Source: a virus. Taken from it: 24,822 nucleotides of DNA. Made by a program: the position numbers and the translations under genes. Within the stretch, counting starts at the first letter, position 1, and each line of letters starts with the position of its first letter. The stretch spans positions 1 through 24,822 of IMG/VR virus record IMGVR_UViG_3300017783_005237; one strand, written 5' to 3'. The notes beneath the pieces were generated by a model, which was not told the DNA's origin, did no database searches, and was given only the letters and a program-made list of their open reading frames with translations. Of this stretch, positions 1,092 through 23,466 are shown one piece after another.

Positions 1092-1516
1092 TAATGACCA
1101 CGACTTCTCTGCATGGCGGCAATCTTATCATTGTAGTCTCTAACACGTCTAGATTTACGTTTGGATTTCATCCATTTTGTACCAGTGGGCATGTATTGTT
1201 TAAACTCGCCTCTTGCTTCGGCTTCTCTAACATACTTTTCCCATCTTTTCTTTGCCGCTTTCTTTTTTCTATTACGTTTTGCACTAGGCTTTTCATAATA
1301 TTGTTGCTTTGCTAATTCTTTTTGAAATTCTGCTTTTTCTAATCGTTTTTTCAAAACTCTTAACGCCTTATTTACATCGTTGTTTCTAACTTCGACAGCA
1401 CTATTAAATCTATCGAGATAATGTGTGTCTTTTTTAGGTTGTTCCTTTCTTTTATTTGAATTCCAACTTTGGGTAATTTTTTTACCCTGTTGTTTTCCAT
1501 ACTGTTTATTGCTCAA
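1091..1516 (-). CDS. rpsU: Phage-encoded ribosomal protein bS21 homologue, extended
   Basis: Residues about 38-95 match bS21 of the small ribosomal subunit. The stretch VEVRNNDVNKALRVLKKRLE is followed by QQYYEKPSAKRNRKKKAAKKR, which parallels the bacterial pattern REFYEKPTxxRxRxxxxAxKR. bS21 sits near the anti-Shine-Dalgarno helix of 16S rRNA and aids initiation. Phage bS21 homologues are known from marine phages and may swap into host ribosomes. This one has 141 residues against about 70 for host bS21: a basic N-terminal region of about 37 residues and a basic C-terminal tail of about 46 are added. The start is TTG at 1516, overlapping the clpX stop (TTGA), with AGAGGT five bases upstream. 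No ATG fits the conserved reading. It lies directly between clpX and the nucleotidyltransferase gene. Confidence 0.85.
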   Translation of the reverse strand: MSNKQYGKQQGKKITQSWNSNKRKEQPKKDTHYLDRFNSAVEVRNNDVNKALRVLKKRLEKAEFQKELAKQQYYEKPSAKRNRKKKAAKKRWEKYVREAEARGEFKQYMPTGTKWMKSKRKSRRVRDYNDKIAAMQRSRGH

Positions 1517-2781
1517 CTTTTACCTCTAATCTTTATTTTGTAATCATTATCTGATTCTTCATTACCGTTAGTATATATGAAAATAGGGTATGTGTCAACA
1601 TCTTTTGTAGGATATTTGTTAAACCTTATTGCTTTAACTCCATTTTCTTTGAGTTTGGGTGCTCTAAACATAACATTATGTAGACTATTTTCTACAATAG
1701 ATTTTAATCCTCTAGCACCAGTTTTTGTTTTACTTGCCATTTTGGCAATATCATTTATATACTCTTCGTTAAATTCTAATTCAATATCGTCAAACTCTAA
1801 TAGTTTTTTAACCTGTGGAAGAACACTTGCTTTGGATGATTTTAAAATTGATTTCATATCACTTTCAGTTAAAGGTTCTAAAGGAACAATGTTTGGCAGT
1901 CTTCCAACAAGTTCTGGTATTAGACCAAAACTTATTAAGTCATCATGTACTACTTTGTGTTGCCAATTATCTTTTTTAGTTGTGTCTTTGAGGGTCTTAT
2001 TGAACCCTATATTCTTTTTATTTGTTCTTGTATTAATTTGTTTTTCTAATCCAACAAATGCACCACTACATATGAATAGTACGTTAGTTGTATCAAATTC
2101 TACAAATTGATCCATACGTTTAGAACCATTTGAAGATACTTTAACAGTTGTACCTTCTATAAGTCTTAATAGTGCTTGTTGTACACCTTGCCCACTAATA
2201 TCCTTTGTGCCGGTGTTAGACTCGCCCTTACGAGCCTTTTTATCTATCTCATCTATGAATACTATACCTTTTTGTGCTACTTCTAAATTCCAATCACACA
2301 TATTAAGTAAACGTTCTAACATGCTTTCTACATCTTCTCCAACATATCCTGCTTCAGTTAATGTTGTAGCATCTGCAATAGCAAAAGGCACACTTAACTT
2401 TTCTGCAAGTGTTCTTGCTAATAGTGTTTTACCTGTTCCTGTATTACCTAAAATAATAATATTACTTTTTTCTATTTCAGTATCACTTTCATTATAAATT
2501 GTTTTGTAATGATTATATGCACAAACAGACAATATTTCTTTTGCATATTCTTGGCTGATTACATATTCATCTAGATGTGCTTTGATTTCTTCAGGCGTAG
2601 GAATATCCTCAAATAGTAAATCTTCTAAAGGATCTTCTTCGTTGATTATTTTGTGACTGATGCTAATACATTCATTACAGATGTATGAACTGGGACCAGC
2701 GATGAGTTTCTTTACTTCAGTTCGCTTTTTACCACAAAAACTACAGTTTAAATTTTGTTCGCTATCTTTATTACCGGGCAT
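1513..2781 (-). CDS. clpX: ClpX-type AAA+ unfoldase
   Basis: This 422-aa protein is nearly the length of E. coli ClpX (424). An N-terminal zinc-binding domain has C13, C16, C35 and C38. The AAA+ core has Walker A GNTGTGKT (K118), the GYVG pore loop (145-148), Walker B IVFIDEID (173-180), an arginine finger in LVGRLP, and sensor 2 in TGARGLKS. The IGF tripeptide that docks ClpX onto ClpP is present at 258-260, so the product should pair with host ClpP; no clpP is in the window. The RKH pore-2 loop, which helps choose substrates, reads SKRMDQF here, so specificity may differ. Start ATG at 2781 overlaps the previous stop (TAATG) and has GAGGAA upstream. The likely role is redirecting host proteolysis, or unfolding phage proteins; that role is inference. 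Confidence 0.95.
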   Translation of the reverse strand: MPGNKDSEQNLNCSFCGKKRTEVKKLIAGPSSYICNECISISHKIINEEDPLEDLLFEDIPTPEEIKAHLDEYVISQEYAKEILSVCAYNHYKTIYNESDTEIEKSNIIILGNTGTGKTLLARTLAEKLSVPFAIADATTLTEAGYVGEDVESMLERLLNMCDWNLEVAQKGIVFIDEIDKKARKGESNTGTKDISGQGVQQALLRLIEGTTVKVSSNGSKRMDQFVEFDTTNVLFICSGAFVGLEKQINTRTNKKNIGFNKTLKDTTKKDNWQHKVVHDDLISFGLIPELVGRLPNIVPLEPLTESDMKSILKSSKASVLPQVKKLLEFDDIELEFNEEYINDIAKMASKTKTGARGLKSIVENSLHNVMFRAPKLKENGVKAIRFNKYPTKDVDTYPIFIYTNGNEESDNDYKIKIRGKS

Positions 2782-5033: not shown

Positions 5034-5513
5034 TTATTCTGAGAAAGTTATTTTTTGATGGTCGTTACGTTCAACAGTAGCACTATTATGTTCATGTTCC
5101 CTAACAGTACATTCTTGTACCCAACATCTACCGTCAGTTAAATCATTAACTAAGTCTTGTGCATAGTCAAATACTTGTTCAGCAAAACGTTCACAACCAA
5201 CTGCTGGCACAAGTCTCATATCAATAAGATTTTTTTCTTGCAACATTTTAACTGTTTCTAACTCTGGATCATCTTCTGCAACTAGATATGTATGGTCAAA
5301 CATATATTTTAACCATTCTTTAAGTGGCTTTAGTCCACCAAAGTCTACAATCCAATTCCTGTCATCTAGTTCTCCACCAAATTTAAGTTCAAACTGTAAT
5401 GCATATCCATGTATTAAATTGCAATGGCTGTCTGCTCTCCATTGTCTAAATGCACAACTATGTCCAGTTGCATGTGAATAAGTTTTACCTGAATAAAATC
5501 TTTTGTTTACCAT
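5034..5513 (-). CDS. queD: QueD / 6-pyruvoyl-tetrahydropterin synthase family protein
   Basis: The 159-aa product matches the PTPS/QueD fold. In 7-deazaguanine synthesis QueD turns dihydroneopterin triphosphate into 6-carboxy-tetrahydropterin. Visible motifs are GHSCAFRQW near residue 18, C31-NLIHGYAL (catalytic Cys plus zinc His H35), WIVDFGGLKPLK, FDHTYL, and a late Glu in VREHEHNSATVE. The canonical second zinc His of LHGHxY is Tyr here (HGY, Y37), which may be a subfamily trait. Phages use this pathway for queuosine supply or for preQ0-type DNA modification. No queC, queE or folE is in the window, so the use is open. ATG at 5513 overlaps the stop of a 51-aa gene (TAATG), with an AGGAG-like site 12 bases upstream. 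Confidence 0.9.
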   Translation of the reverse strand: MVNKRFYSGKTYSHATGHSCAFRQWRADSHCNLIHGYALQFELKFGGELDDRNWIVDFGGLKPLKEWLKYMFDHTYLVAEDDPELETVKMLQEKNLIDMRLVPAVGCERFAEQVFDYAQDLVNDLTDGRCWVQECTVREHEHNSATVERNDHQKITFSE

Positions 5514-20032: not shown

Positions 20033-20973
20033 TGTTTTAATCCACACCATTCACATTTTTTGTCTATTGGTACATGTACTATATATCCCCTTATTTGACA
20101 ACGGTGTGCCCAAAATGAAGGACTTTGTATAGAGTTACTAACTAATTCTTCTGCCATAGAACCCCAAAACTTTCCTGCTTTTGGTCCTTTATTCTTTTTA
20201 CCATCACTCTCGCCTGGTATTTTAACCCACAGAAAAGCATCACAATGTTCTTCTTCAGTATTACATGTAGGCTCTTTACCTAATGCTCTGCCAGGTGGGT
20301 TACACCATTCATTGCCTAGAGGACCTTTACCATTACGACTTGTATCGATTACAAAATAATCATTTGGTCTGTGTTCGCAAACTTTTAAACTCCACTCCAT
20401 AGATTCTTCTGTGCTTCTGTAATTACTTACATTTACTGCAAAACCTCTTACTTTATTATTGCTTACATTGTTTAAAAGGTTTGCGGCTTCTTTAGGACTT
20501 AGCCAATTGCTATGACCAATATCTATATAAACGTATGCTTCGCTTTCCTCTGTGAGAACTTTAAGTCCTTCTTTAATTAAGTTTAATCTATATTCTGATT
20601 GAGTAGGTTCCATATGTGTTGTATGTGGTAATGCATCTGGTTCGTATATAATAATAGGTTTATGCCCTTTTATACCCTCACAGAACTCGTGTATAAACAT
20701 TAAATATTCACTAGCATCTTTGGCACCACCTTTGCTATAATGTCCCATATCTCTATTAGGTAAATTATATATTACAAAGTATGGTAAGTTTGGTGCAGTT
20801 CGTTTTAGAAATCTTTTGAGACTCTTTTGTAAGTTCTTTACAGGTTTTCCTTTTTTAGAACCATACCAAAATGCTACTGGGTGTTCAAATATTCTACTTG
20901 ATAAAGGAAAGTTTATTCTGTGGTCTTTGACTCTGTCGAAATCGTTTACCCAGAAAGGATAATTAAGTGCCAT
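20029..20973 (-). CDS. Glycoside hydrolase family 6 (cellulase/cellobiohydrolase family) protein
   Basis: The 314-aa product shows the full GH6 signature set in order: VIYNLPNRDMGHYSKGG (R74, D75), IIIYEPDALP (catalytic-acid Asp D113), YVYIDIGHSNWL (147-158), GFAVNVSNY (177-185) and YFVIDTSRNGKGPLG (206-220). WCNPPGRALG follows (223-232), then FLWVKIPGESDG (247-258, D257), then PKAGKFWGSMAEELV. GH6 enzymes invert beta-1,4-glucan bonds. No signal peptide or carbohydrate-binding module is visible. About 30 residues after the GH6 core contain a possible CEWC knuckle (C-terminus). The start lies inside the end of the peptide deformylase gene. Phage GH6 genes are unusual. It may attack a host glucan-like surface polymer from the virion or act in the cell. 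Confidence 0.93.
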   Translation of the reverse strand: MALNYPFWVNDFDRVKDHRINFPLSSRIFEHPVAFWYGSKKGKPVKNLQKSLKRFLKRTAPNLPYFVIYNLPNRDMGHYSKGGAKDASEYLMFIHEFCEGIKGHKPIIIYEPDALPHTTHMEPTQSEYRLNLIKEGLKVLTEESEAYVYIDIGHSNWLSPKEAANLLNNVSNNKVRGFAVNVSNYRSTEESMEWSLKVCEHRPNDYFVIDTSRNGKGPLGNEWCNPPGRALGKEPTCNTEEEHCDAFLWVKIPGESDGKKNKGPKAGKFWGSMAEELVSNSIQSPSFWAHRCQIRGYIVHVPIDKKCEWCGLKQ

Positions 20974-21514
20974 TTTCTAATTGTTGCAAGGCTAAATCAT
21001 TCTGCAAGATTTTAAACTGTTTATCACGTTTTTTAATTGCACGTTTAAGTTTCATATCACTTGCATATTCCAAATATAGTTTACCATTTAAATGGTCTAA
21101 CTCATGTTGGAAACATCTTGCATCCATCCCTTCTAACCAATCTTCAACAACTTGTTGGTCATGCGTTTGGAATTTAACTTTAACTTTTGCTGGTCTAGTT
21201 ACTATAAAATATAATAAAGGAAATGTTAAGCAACCTTCTTCTATTGCAACTTCTTCTTTACTAAACTCTAATATCTCAGGATTAAATACCCCAACATCTT
21301 CGCCTGAAGCAAAAGTCATAACAAACATTCTATAACCCATACCTAATTGTGGTGAAGCAAGTCCTATACCAAACCTATCTTTCATAAGTTGTATCATTTC
21401 TTCTTCACGTTTTTCCCAATCTGCATTTTTATCATCAAATGGATTTACACTTGCAATTGAATGAAGTGCAGGATTTTTTGGATCAACTAGTTGTATTTTA
21501 AAATCTTCCGACAT
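20963..21514 (-). CDS. def: Peptide deformylase
   Basis: The 183-aa product has all three deformylase motifs: GIGLASPQLG (49-58), EGCLTFP (93-99) with metal Cys C95, and QHELDH (136-141) with H137, E138 and H141. It removes the formyl group from new proteins' N-terminal Met, using Fe or Zn. Unlike some short phage deformylases, it keeps a C-terminal helical tail (about 150-183, Lys-rich). Marine phages are known to carry def, thought to help translation of host-derived photosystem or other proteins during infection. It overlaps the GH6 gene at its end and the membrane protein gene at its start. Confidence 0.95.
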   Translation of the reverse strand: MSEDFKIQLVDPKNPALHSIASVNPFDDKNADWEKREEEMIQLMKDRFGIGLASPQLGMGYRMFVMTFASGEDVGVFNPEILEFSKEEVAIEEGCLTFPLLYFIVTRPAKVKVKFQTHDQQVVEDWLEGMDARCFQHELDHLNGKLYLEYASDMKLKRAIKKRDKQFKILQNDLALQQLENGT

Positions 21515-22535: not shown

Positions 22536-22543
22536 TATTTATG
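22536..22543 (-). promoter_or_regulatory. T4-type late promoter box
   Basis: CATAAATA, ATATT, ATG (22530) on the minus strand. It overlaps the stop region of the gene at 22539. Predicted +1 is the A of the ATG. Confidence 0.6.
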
Positions 22544-23057
22544 CGGCTTTATGAACTTCCTCTAACAGTTGAGGATCTTTTTGGTCGAACCAACCGTTTT
22601 TGGTTTTATACTGACATTTATAGTCATCTCTAGTGTTACCTACACCAGGTGTCCATTGCTCAGCCTTACCAGTAATGCCATCTGCATAATGAGTATATTC
22701 AGGATGGGGAGTGTGATGGGTACGACACTTCCATTGCTTGTCTTCATAAAAGAACTGCACCGGAGTTTCCCAAGGTTCACATATTGGACCCTTGCCGTCG
22801 CCATTTTTACCAAGTTCACGTATCTCCCAATCCAGGATATATTCTTCAAATCCTTCGTTAAAGGATTCAATAAGTTTAGTAAGGGTTGGGATACCTCCAT
22901 TAGCAATCGTATTGATTTGCGTGGAAGTTAAATCATCAACAAAGTAAGTACAGCCACCCTTGAATTTCCAATAAGGTTCAGAAGTACCATGCACATAACC
23001 TTCGTCATGAGCCGCATAGTTCTCTCTGTATTGTGTGTGTATTACTAATGTTTGCAT
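22539..23057 (-). CDS. Conserved phage protein of unknown function, 172 aa
   Basis: The product begins MQTLVIHTQYRENYAAHDEG and goes on with YVHGTSEPYWKFKGGCTYFV. It is rich in aromatic residues, His and Gly. Related starts (TLVIxTQYRENYxAH) occur in marine phages without known function. ATG 23057 is preferred over 23102 because AGGAG lies 6 nt upstream and because a promoter with predicted +1 near 23086 would leave out the longer form. Expression by host sigma70 right after the tRNA genes points to early or middle timing. Confidence 0.75.
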   Translation of the reverse strand: MQTLVIHTQYRENYAAHDEGYVHGTSEPYWKFKGGCTYFVDDLTSTQINTIANGGIPTLTKLIESFNEGFEEYILDWEIRELGKNGDGKGPICEPWETPVQFFYEDKQWKCRTHHTPHPEYTHYADGITGKAEQWTPGVGNTRDDYKCQYKTKNGWFDQKDPQLLEEVHKAA

Positions 23058-23092
23058 AAATTCTCCTACCTTTTTATTTAAACTATGTACAT

Positions 23093-23121: not shown

Positions 23122-23149
23122 CCTTTTTTTCACTTTTTTTGGTAAAAAA

Positions 23150-23228: not shown

Positions 23229-23304
23229 TGGAGCTCGGGATAAGATTTGAACTTACGACCTGAGGTTTACAAAACCCCTGCTCTACCAACTGAGCTACCC
23301 GAGC
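23229..23304 (-). tRNA. tRNA-Thr (anticodon TGT)
   Basis: The minus strand folds into a cloverleaf: acceptor GCTCGGG/CCCGAGC, D arm AGCTCAGTTGGTAGAGC, anticodon loop TTTGTAA (anticodon TGT), T loop TTCAAAT, discriminator T, and encoded CCA. It decodes ACA. It lies 4 bp upstream of tRNA-Glu, so they probably share a precursor. Confidence 0.97.
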
Positions 23305-23308
23305 TCGG

Positions 23309-23432
23309 ATTAGAAAGTATAGTACACTTAAGGAACTTTACTGGGCACGGTTAAAATCTACTCTTGTTTCGTGGTGTGTTTTACCACACAACCCCACCTA
23401 ATATACGAAATACCACACGGATACTTTCTAAT
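23309..23432 (-). ncRNA. Candidate structured RNA upstream of the tRNAs
   Basis: ATTAGAAAGTAT and ATACTTTCTAAT form a perfect 12-bp inverted repeat (23309-23320 and 23421-23432) closing a 124-nt element with no open frame. The promoter at 23439-23466 predicts +1 at 23432, the first base of the repeat, so the RNA would begin with its own closing helix. Inside is a GTGTG/CACAC or GTGGT/ACCAC hairpin around 23371-23389. The tRNA-Thr begins 4 bp after the element. T4 carries stable RNAs of unknown role in its tRNA cluster, a possible parallel. No known RNA family is recognised. Confidence 0.45.
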
Positions 23433-23438
23433 ATATGT

Positions 23439-23466
23439 ATTATACTGATTTTTTGTTAAATGTCAA
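23439..23466 (-). promoter_or_regulatory. Sigma70 promoter of the ncRNA-tRNA unit
   Basis: The minus strand has TTGACA (23466-23461), 16 nt, then TATAAT (23444-23439). The TGA stop of the gene at 23463 lies within TTGACA. Predicted +1 is 23432. Confidence 0.8.

Follow-up and report, generated by a model that had tools for sequence, protein, structure and literature searches.

What would a lytic phage that brings its own tRNA-Glu gain from an RNA of 62–130 nt? This is the question raised by a locus in the window, the whole 24,822-nt (24.8-kb) stretch of DNA analysed here, which is the virus record IMG/VR IMGVR_UViG_3300017783_005237. The record has features of a marine T4-like phage, and the neighbouring proteins find their only matches, distant ones, in the Pelagibacter phages HTVC008M and Mosig. 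A preliminary description had placed here a possible new phage small RNA, without a gene and enclosed by a 12-bp perfect inverted repeat, with a sigma-70 promoter setting the +1 on the first base of the repeat and two tRNAs directly after it. The elements of the locus, including the predicted RNA (RNA A) and its closing helix (P1), are as follows.

23461..23466, minus strand: −35 box TTGACA, by sequence match to the consensus
23439..23444, minus strand: −10 box TATAAT, with a 16-nt spacer and a predicted +1 at 23432
23305..23432, minus strand: predicted RNA A, 128 nt from the +1 to the 5' end of tRNA-Thr, supported by the match to model R1 and by covariation in 32 sequences
23309–23432, minus strand: closed part of RNA A, 124 nt including both arms
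23421..23432, minus strand: 5' arm of P1, ATACTTTCTAAT, covarying in the RNA A family
23309..23320, minus strand: 3' arm of P1, ATTAGAAAGTAT, covarying in the RNA A family
23229..23304, minus strand: tRNA-Thr (UGU), starting 4 nt after P1
23150..23224, minus strand: tRNA-Glu (UUC), the tRNA that accompanies almost all tRNA-linked copies of RNA A
23144..23149, minus strand: T6, a possible transcript end judged from sequence, immediately 3' of the tRNA-Glu CCA

The promoter matches the consensus at 12 of 12 positions (TTGACA-16-TATAAT) and, when the last T of the −10 box is counted as −7, its predicted +1 falls on the first base of the P1 5' arm, as had been described. The two arms are perfectly complementary over 12 bp, and the two tRNAs lie on the same strand where they were said to be. 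The 124 nt that the repeat was held to enclose is instead the span with the arms, 100 nt lying between them; the leader does lack any ORF of at least 40 aa. Counting this one, the window has three promoters that fit the consensus perfectly, every one on the minus strand; the other two (9859–9831 and 8167–8139) have 17-nt spacers. The genes of that strand look like a set driven by the host sigma factor, and among their predicted products are the following.

1513–2781, minus strand: phage-encoded ClpX-like ATPase
5034–5513, minus strand: QueD-like (6-pyruvoyl-tetrahydropterin synthase-like) protein, by sequence motif only
20963–21514, minus strand: phage-encoded peptide deformylase

The promoter of the gene at 22539–23060 (23121–23093, minus strand) is conserved in the contig L004, which carries neither RNA A nor the tRNAs, and the RNA-tRNA block therefore resembles a cassette set upstream of this gene.

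Taken alone, the helix is weak evidence. By chance, each shuffled window should hold 0.78 perfect inverted repeats of 12 bp within 200 nt, which makes the one found here unremarkable by itself; such a repeat fell inside the 134-nt leader in 23 of 20,000 shuffles, and the folding energy of the leader alone is ordinary (z = −1.2). The decisive evidence is covariation in relatives, for which IMG/VR was searched first via the neighbouring gene and later via the core of RNA A. In its leader the nearest relative (contig 3300017746_000140) has a single base changed and is uninformative. Two more distant phages, L187 and L188, were reached through the neighbouring glycosyltransferase; in these the arms read ATTAGTAAGTAT/ATACTTACTAAT and TGAGGTGC/GCACCTCA, respectively, while the inner sequence is kept and tRNA genes then follow. 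A two-block pattern taken from the inner sequence yielded L216 and L219, whose arms differ again (TAGTTAATAA/TTATTAACTA); the genome-contig matches of the first RNA pattern (L220–L225) were rejected as coding-like and without arms. The arms thus change completely in relatives yet stay complementary, which upholds the proposed RNA closed by a helix at its +1, although neither its production nor its stability has been shown and the action on RNA polymerase, ribosomes or tRNA processing suggested for it is conjecture.

A covariance model built from the first six sequences recovered one distant member (G055, E = 4e-8), which revealed the minimal core, and a core pattern with 16 specified bases returned 68 contigs, with 42 loci scoring as members. 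In total, the family comprises 48 loci and 33 distinct sequences from uncultured phages in IMG/VR, the many carriers being mostly aquatic T4-like phages. The search pattern fixed the 5' core CGAGTGGTNTTTCGTNNNTT, so that invariance inside it is partly imposed, and left the 3' core, the closing helix and the upper helix free. The window, which is among the training sequences of both models, matches R1 at 23311–23430 (137 bits) and R2 with 71.5 bits, and has the covarying closing helix, the conserved two-strand core and the covarying N/N' pair by which the family is defined. The inner elements of the window copy are given below.

23397..23420, minus strand: conserved 5' core strand CCGUGUGGUAUUUCGUAUAUUAGG (family CGAGUGGUNUUUCGUAWAUUG), partly fixed by the search pattern
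23414–23411, minus strand: GGUN of the 5' core, with the 3' core strand as partner
23321..23334, minus strand: conserved 3' core strand UCCUUAAGUGUACU, whose UACU at 23324–23321 pairs with GGUA, the outer pair being A-U in 21 and C-G in 11 sequences
23374..23389, minus strand: apical hairpin, long form (GUGUG-GUAAAA-CACAC), covarying among close relatives
23346..23373, minus strand: apical element closed by CACG/CGUG (CAUG/CAUG in L188), from the six-sequence alignment

Among the first six sequences, double changes occurred at 10 of 33 pairs with 99.5% of cells able to pair, which none of 500 shuffles reached. Across the alignment of 32 sequences (A6), paired cells made up 95.8% (72.8% in shuffles) and cells changed on both sides numbered 157 (46 in shuffles; 0 of 500 as high), and shifting the helix partners abolished the signal. 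The check for compensating arm changes that the preliminary description had called for was passed, with covariation in all 10 tested pairs of P1. The N of GGUN and the N' of N'ACY paired without exception, and the upper helix was supported by G-C/A-U and G-C/C-G changes. In a scan of all column pairs those of P1, of the core and of the upper helix ranked highest, and U-A/U-G changes at columns 31–110 and 32–109 fit an extension of the upper helix. These comparisons show, as far as sequence can, a fold under selection with a closing helix whose sequence is free, a two-strand core (GGUN/N'ACY) that hardly varies, an upper helix and a variable top, which ranges from 4 nt in L256 (a 62-nt RNA) to two further hairpins in the window. 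That RNA A is a real structured RNA family is, on the covariation, near certain. Some 20 core positions are invariant, part of them fixed by the seed pattern. A first RNAalifold model with a long GUAUAUU/AGUGUAC helix was replaced, as N' covaries with the A/C of GGUN and not with GUA. If CGAG paired with UUCG in the 5' core, an H-type pseudoknot would result with GGUN as its loop strand; this pairing remains only a proposal because both segments are nearly invariant, with one mismatch in the window. Together, the covarying core pair and the unproven short hairpin suggest a pseudoknot.

No known family accounts for these sequences. Rfam 15 at gathering thresholds (cmscan) gave only tRNAs and GOLLD for the members tested, none over RNA A, and no recurring match overlapped RNA A up to E = 10. 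With four different members as BLAST queries, no member turned up among 50,697 named phage records, the matches to PBECO4-like jumbo phages being 25 nt long, coding and at E = 0.9, and the R2 model found none in HTVC008M and Mosig. None of 369 gammaproteobacterial genomes carried RNA A, a weak result for lack of a positive control, and a text search of a limited body of literature did not find the core sequence. An old or decayed tRNA was rejected, since the leader has no tRNA model match and the two tRNAs after it are all that ARAGORN and RF00005 detect; nor does the leader show a tRNA fold or match a tmRNA model. The family is new, in that neither Rfam nor the named phage isolates yielded it at the sensitivity of these searches, though its mechanism may prove to be a known one.

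The genomic setting ties RNA A to one tRNA species. The cluster includes tRNA-Glu(UUC) in 12 of the 13 distinct copies linked to tRNAs, and in five of these 12 it lies immediately next to RNA A (4–17 nt); the exception, L259, has tRNA-Lys. In about 55 other sampled viral tRNA leaders the first tRNA was never Glu. Copies without a tRNA link lie between protein genes, and overall what follows RNA A varies (tRNA-Glu, or ligase-like, membrane and unknown proteins). A promoter matching at 11–12 of 12 positions with its +1 within 1 nt of P1 precedes five of 32 sequences (0.015 expected) from three lineages (window/L187, L216/L219 and L267), which strongly implies a predicted transcript beginning with RNA A in each. 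Most copies sit within operons, several directly abutting the stop codon of the preceding gene, and some run into T-runs or end 10–15 nt before a ribosome-binding site. Each of seven contigs (54–259 kb) holds exactly one strong copy.

Two other types of leader were seen. In two related phages (L106:2831-2989 and L113:1176-1337) a different structured leader with three strong stems runs from a consensus promoter to tRNA-Lys(UUU); it does not belong to the RNA A family. A leader before tRNA-Lys at L078:1017-1184, whose predicted +1 is the first base of its closing helix (AAGGTT/AACCTT), is closed yet does not match the family model. Separately, in five contigs the stretch from RNA A to tRNA-Glu includes another non-coding segment, RNA B (AAUAGGGGUCU...GGACAGGUUUGCGAA...), with no Rfam match and modest support for structure.

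L216:13323-13430, plus strand: RNA B, well conserved
L219:7252-7363, minus strand: RNA B, well conserved
L267:9511-9617, plus strand: RNA B, well conserved
L250:7505-7652, minus strand: RNA B, weaker similarity
L238:2108-2256, minus strand: RNA B, weaker similarity

RNAs that combine a nearly invariant core with covarying helices nearly always have a specific job. The function tentatively preferred here, at somewhat short of even chances, is that of a stable RNA acting in trans, freed by RNase P and binding a protein through its core; the mechanism is inferred only, without transcript data. The arrangement in the window strongly implies that host sigma-70 polymerase would start on the first base of P1 and continue through tRNA-Thr and tRNA-Glu. 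Cleavage by RNase P at the 5' end of tRNA-Thr would then free the 128-nt RNA, its ends sealed by P1, and the conserved core might bind one protein, of host or phage, with the RNA serving in trans as a decoy or inhibitor. A single copy per 54–259 kb contig and the many gene contexts fit a trans-acting RNA gene better than a repeated cis signal, and conservation on both strands of the internal loop would suit protein or ligand binding rather than antisense pairing. The promoters that set the +1 within 1 nt of P1, and the row of RNA A, second RNA and intrinsic terminator ahead of tRNA-Glu in L250 and L238, also count in its favour. Against a trans role, the position of most copies within operons, several of them touching a stop codon, suits a role in cis. 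Some copies, moreover, run into T-runs or lie shortly before a ribosome-binding site, and those with no tRNA after them could not be freed by RNase P.

The main rival, a live possibility although unlikely on balance, is a cis-acting antiterminator in the nascent RNA that binds RNA polymerase and lets it pass terminators into the untranslated tRNA genes, in the manner of the HK022 put RNA, which binds the beta' zinc-binding domain. In L250 and L238 the order is RNA A, second RNA, intrinsic terminator, tRNA-Glu; the terminator is strong (8–9 bp stem, TATTTTT), and because no promoter was found between it and tRNA-Glu, this tRNA must come from read-through. In the five sequences with a promoter at P1, RNA A would moreover be the first thing transcribed, like putL after PL (PMC9378689). 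General terminator enrichment is nevertheless absent, terminators lying within 300 nt downstream in only four of 33 copies (those of L250 and L238 and two weaker sites), and an antiterminator is hard to reconcile with one copy per genome, often within protein operons far from promoters, or with a fold unlike the two stem-loops of put. It is also possible, if unlikely, that RNA A represents a class of functional RNA not known before, small and pseudoknotted (catalytic, ligand-binding or polymerase-binding), that among other uses sets the amount of tRNA-Glu(UUC) via terminator read-through right before that tRNA.

A riboswitch-like aptamer that would act in cis, sensing a ligand to regulate the genes or tRNAs downstream, appears improbable. 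The architecture, in which a compact conserved core is set between a closing helix of free sequence and an upper helix that varies, would suit it, as would the copies ending 10–15 nt before a ribosome-binding site or in T-runs, the terminator ahead of tRNA-Glu in L250 and L238, and the precedents manA and wcaG in marine T4-like phages (PMC2864571); the function of the downstream gene is inconsistent, however, several copies precede tRNAs only, and near the window copy there is neither a terminator nor a ribosome-binding site to control. Only slim credence can be given to a self-cleaving ribozyme that cuts phage transcripts, for which there are no cleavage data: helices of free sequence around a nearly invariant, pseudoknot-like core, in phages and without fixed context, are the anatomy of small ribozymes, but no Rfam ribozyme model matches and, with the +1 at P1, a 10–12-bp helix would still hold the two pieces together after a cut in the core. 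Equally slight is the case for a cap in which helix and core only shield the transcript from RNases or aid tRNA maturation; a helix from the +1 leaves no single-stranded 5' end and some copies lie 4–8 nt from tRNA-Glu, but a plain helix would suffice, leaving the nearly invariant core unexplained along with the copies 100–220 nt from a tRNA or without one. A chance repeat within an ordinary tRNA leader, which the roughly 0.8 such repeats per shuffled window and the ordinary folding energy would allow, has next to no likelihood left, being ruled out by covariation across 33 distinct relatives (32 in the alignment).

Among known systems, the T4-like tRNA cluster with stable RNAs had been offered as the parallel, and it stands by position only: rnaC and rnaD (species 1 and 2 stable RNAs) are 119–139-nt RNAs in the T4 tRNA cluster, but they lie 3' of the tRNAs, and the best hit of the R2 model on the whole T4 genome (E = 0.68) is not at rnaC/rnaD. 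Phage and bacterial GOLLD and ROOL are likewise structured RNAs linked to phage tRNA genes, but several times longer (the Rfam GOLLD model is 416 nt) and without a model match to RNA A. One phage contig that also has several tRNAs carries GOLLD and RNA A, 2.8 kb apart.

L259:4347-4779, minus strand: GOLLD, by Rfam model match

The manA (RF01745) and wcaG (RF01761) RNAs, known from marine metagenomes and T4-like cyanophages (PMC2864571), are also structured RNAs of marine T4-like phages; they are potential 5' UTRs of metabolic genes, whereas RNA A has no Rfam match. The HK022 putRNA, of about 70 nt, is likewise a structured phage RNA, with putL just downstream of the early promoter PL (PMC9378689). 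Put consists of two stem-loops with a triplex, in two copies per genome (putL and putR); two adjacent stem-loops are not met with in RNA A, where covariation supports a single closing helix and a two-strand core, in one copy per contig.
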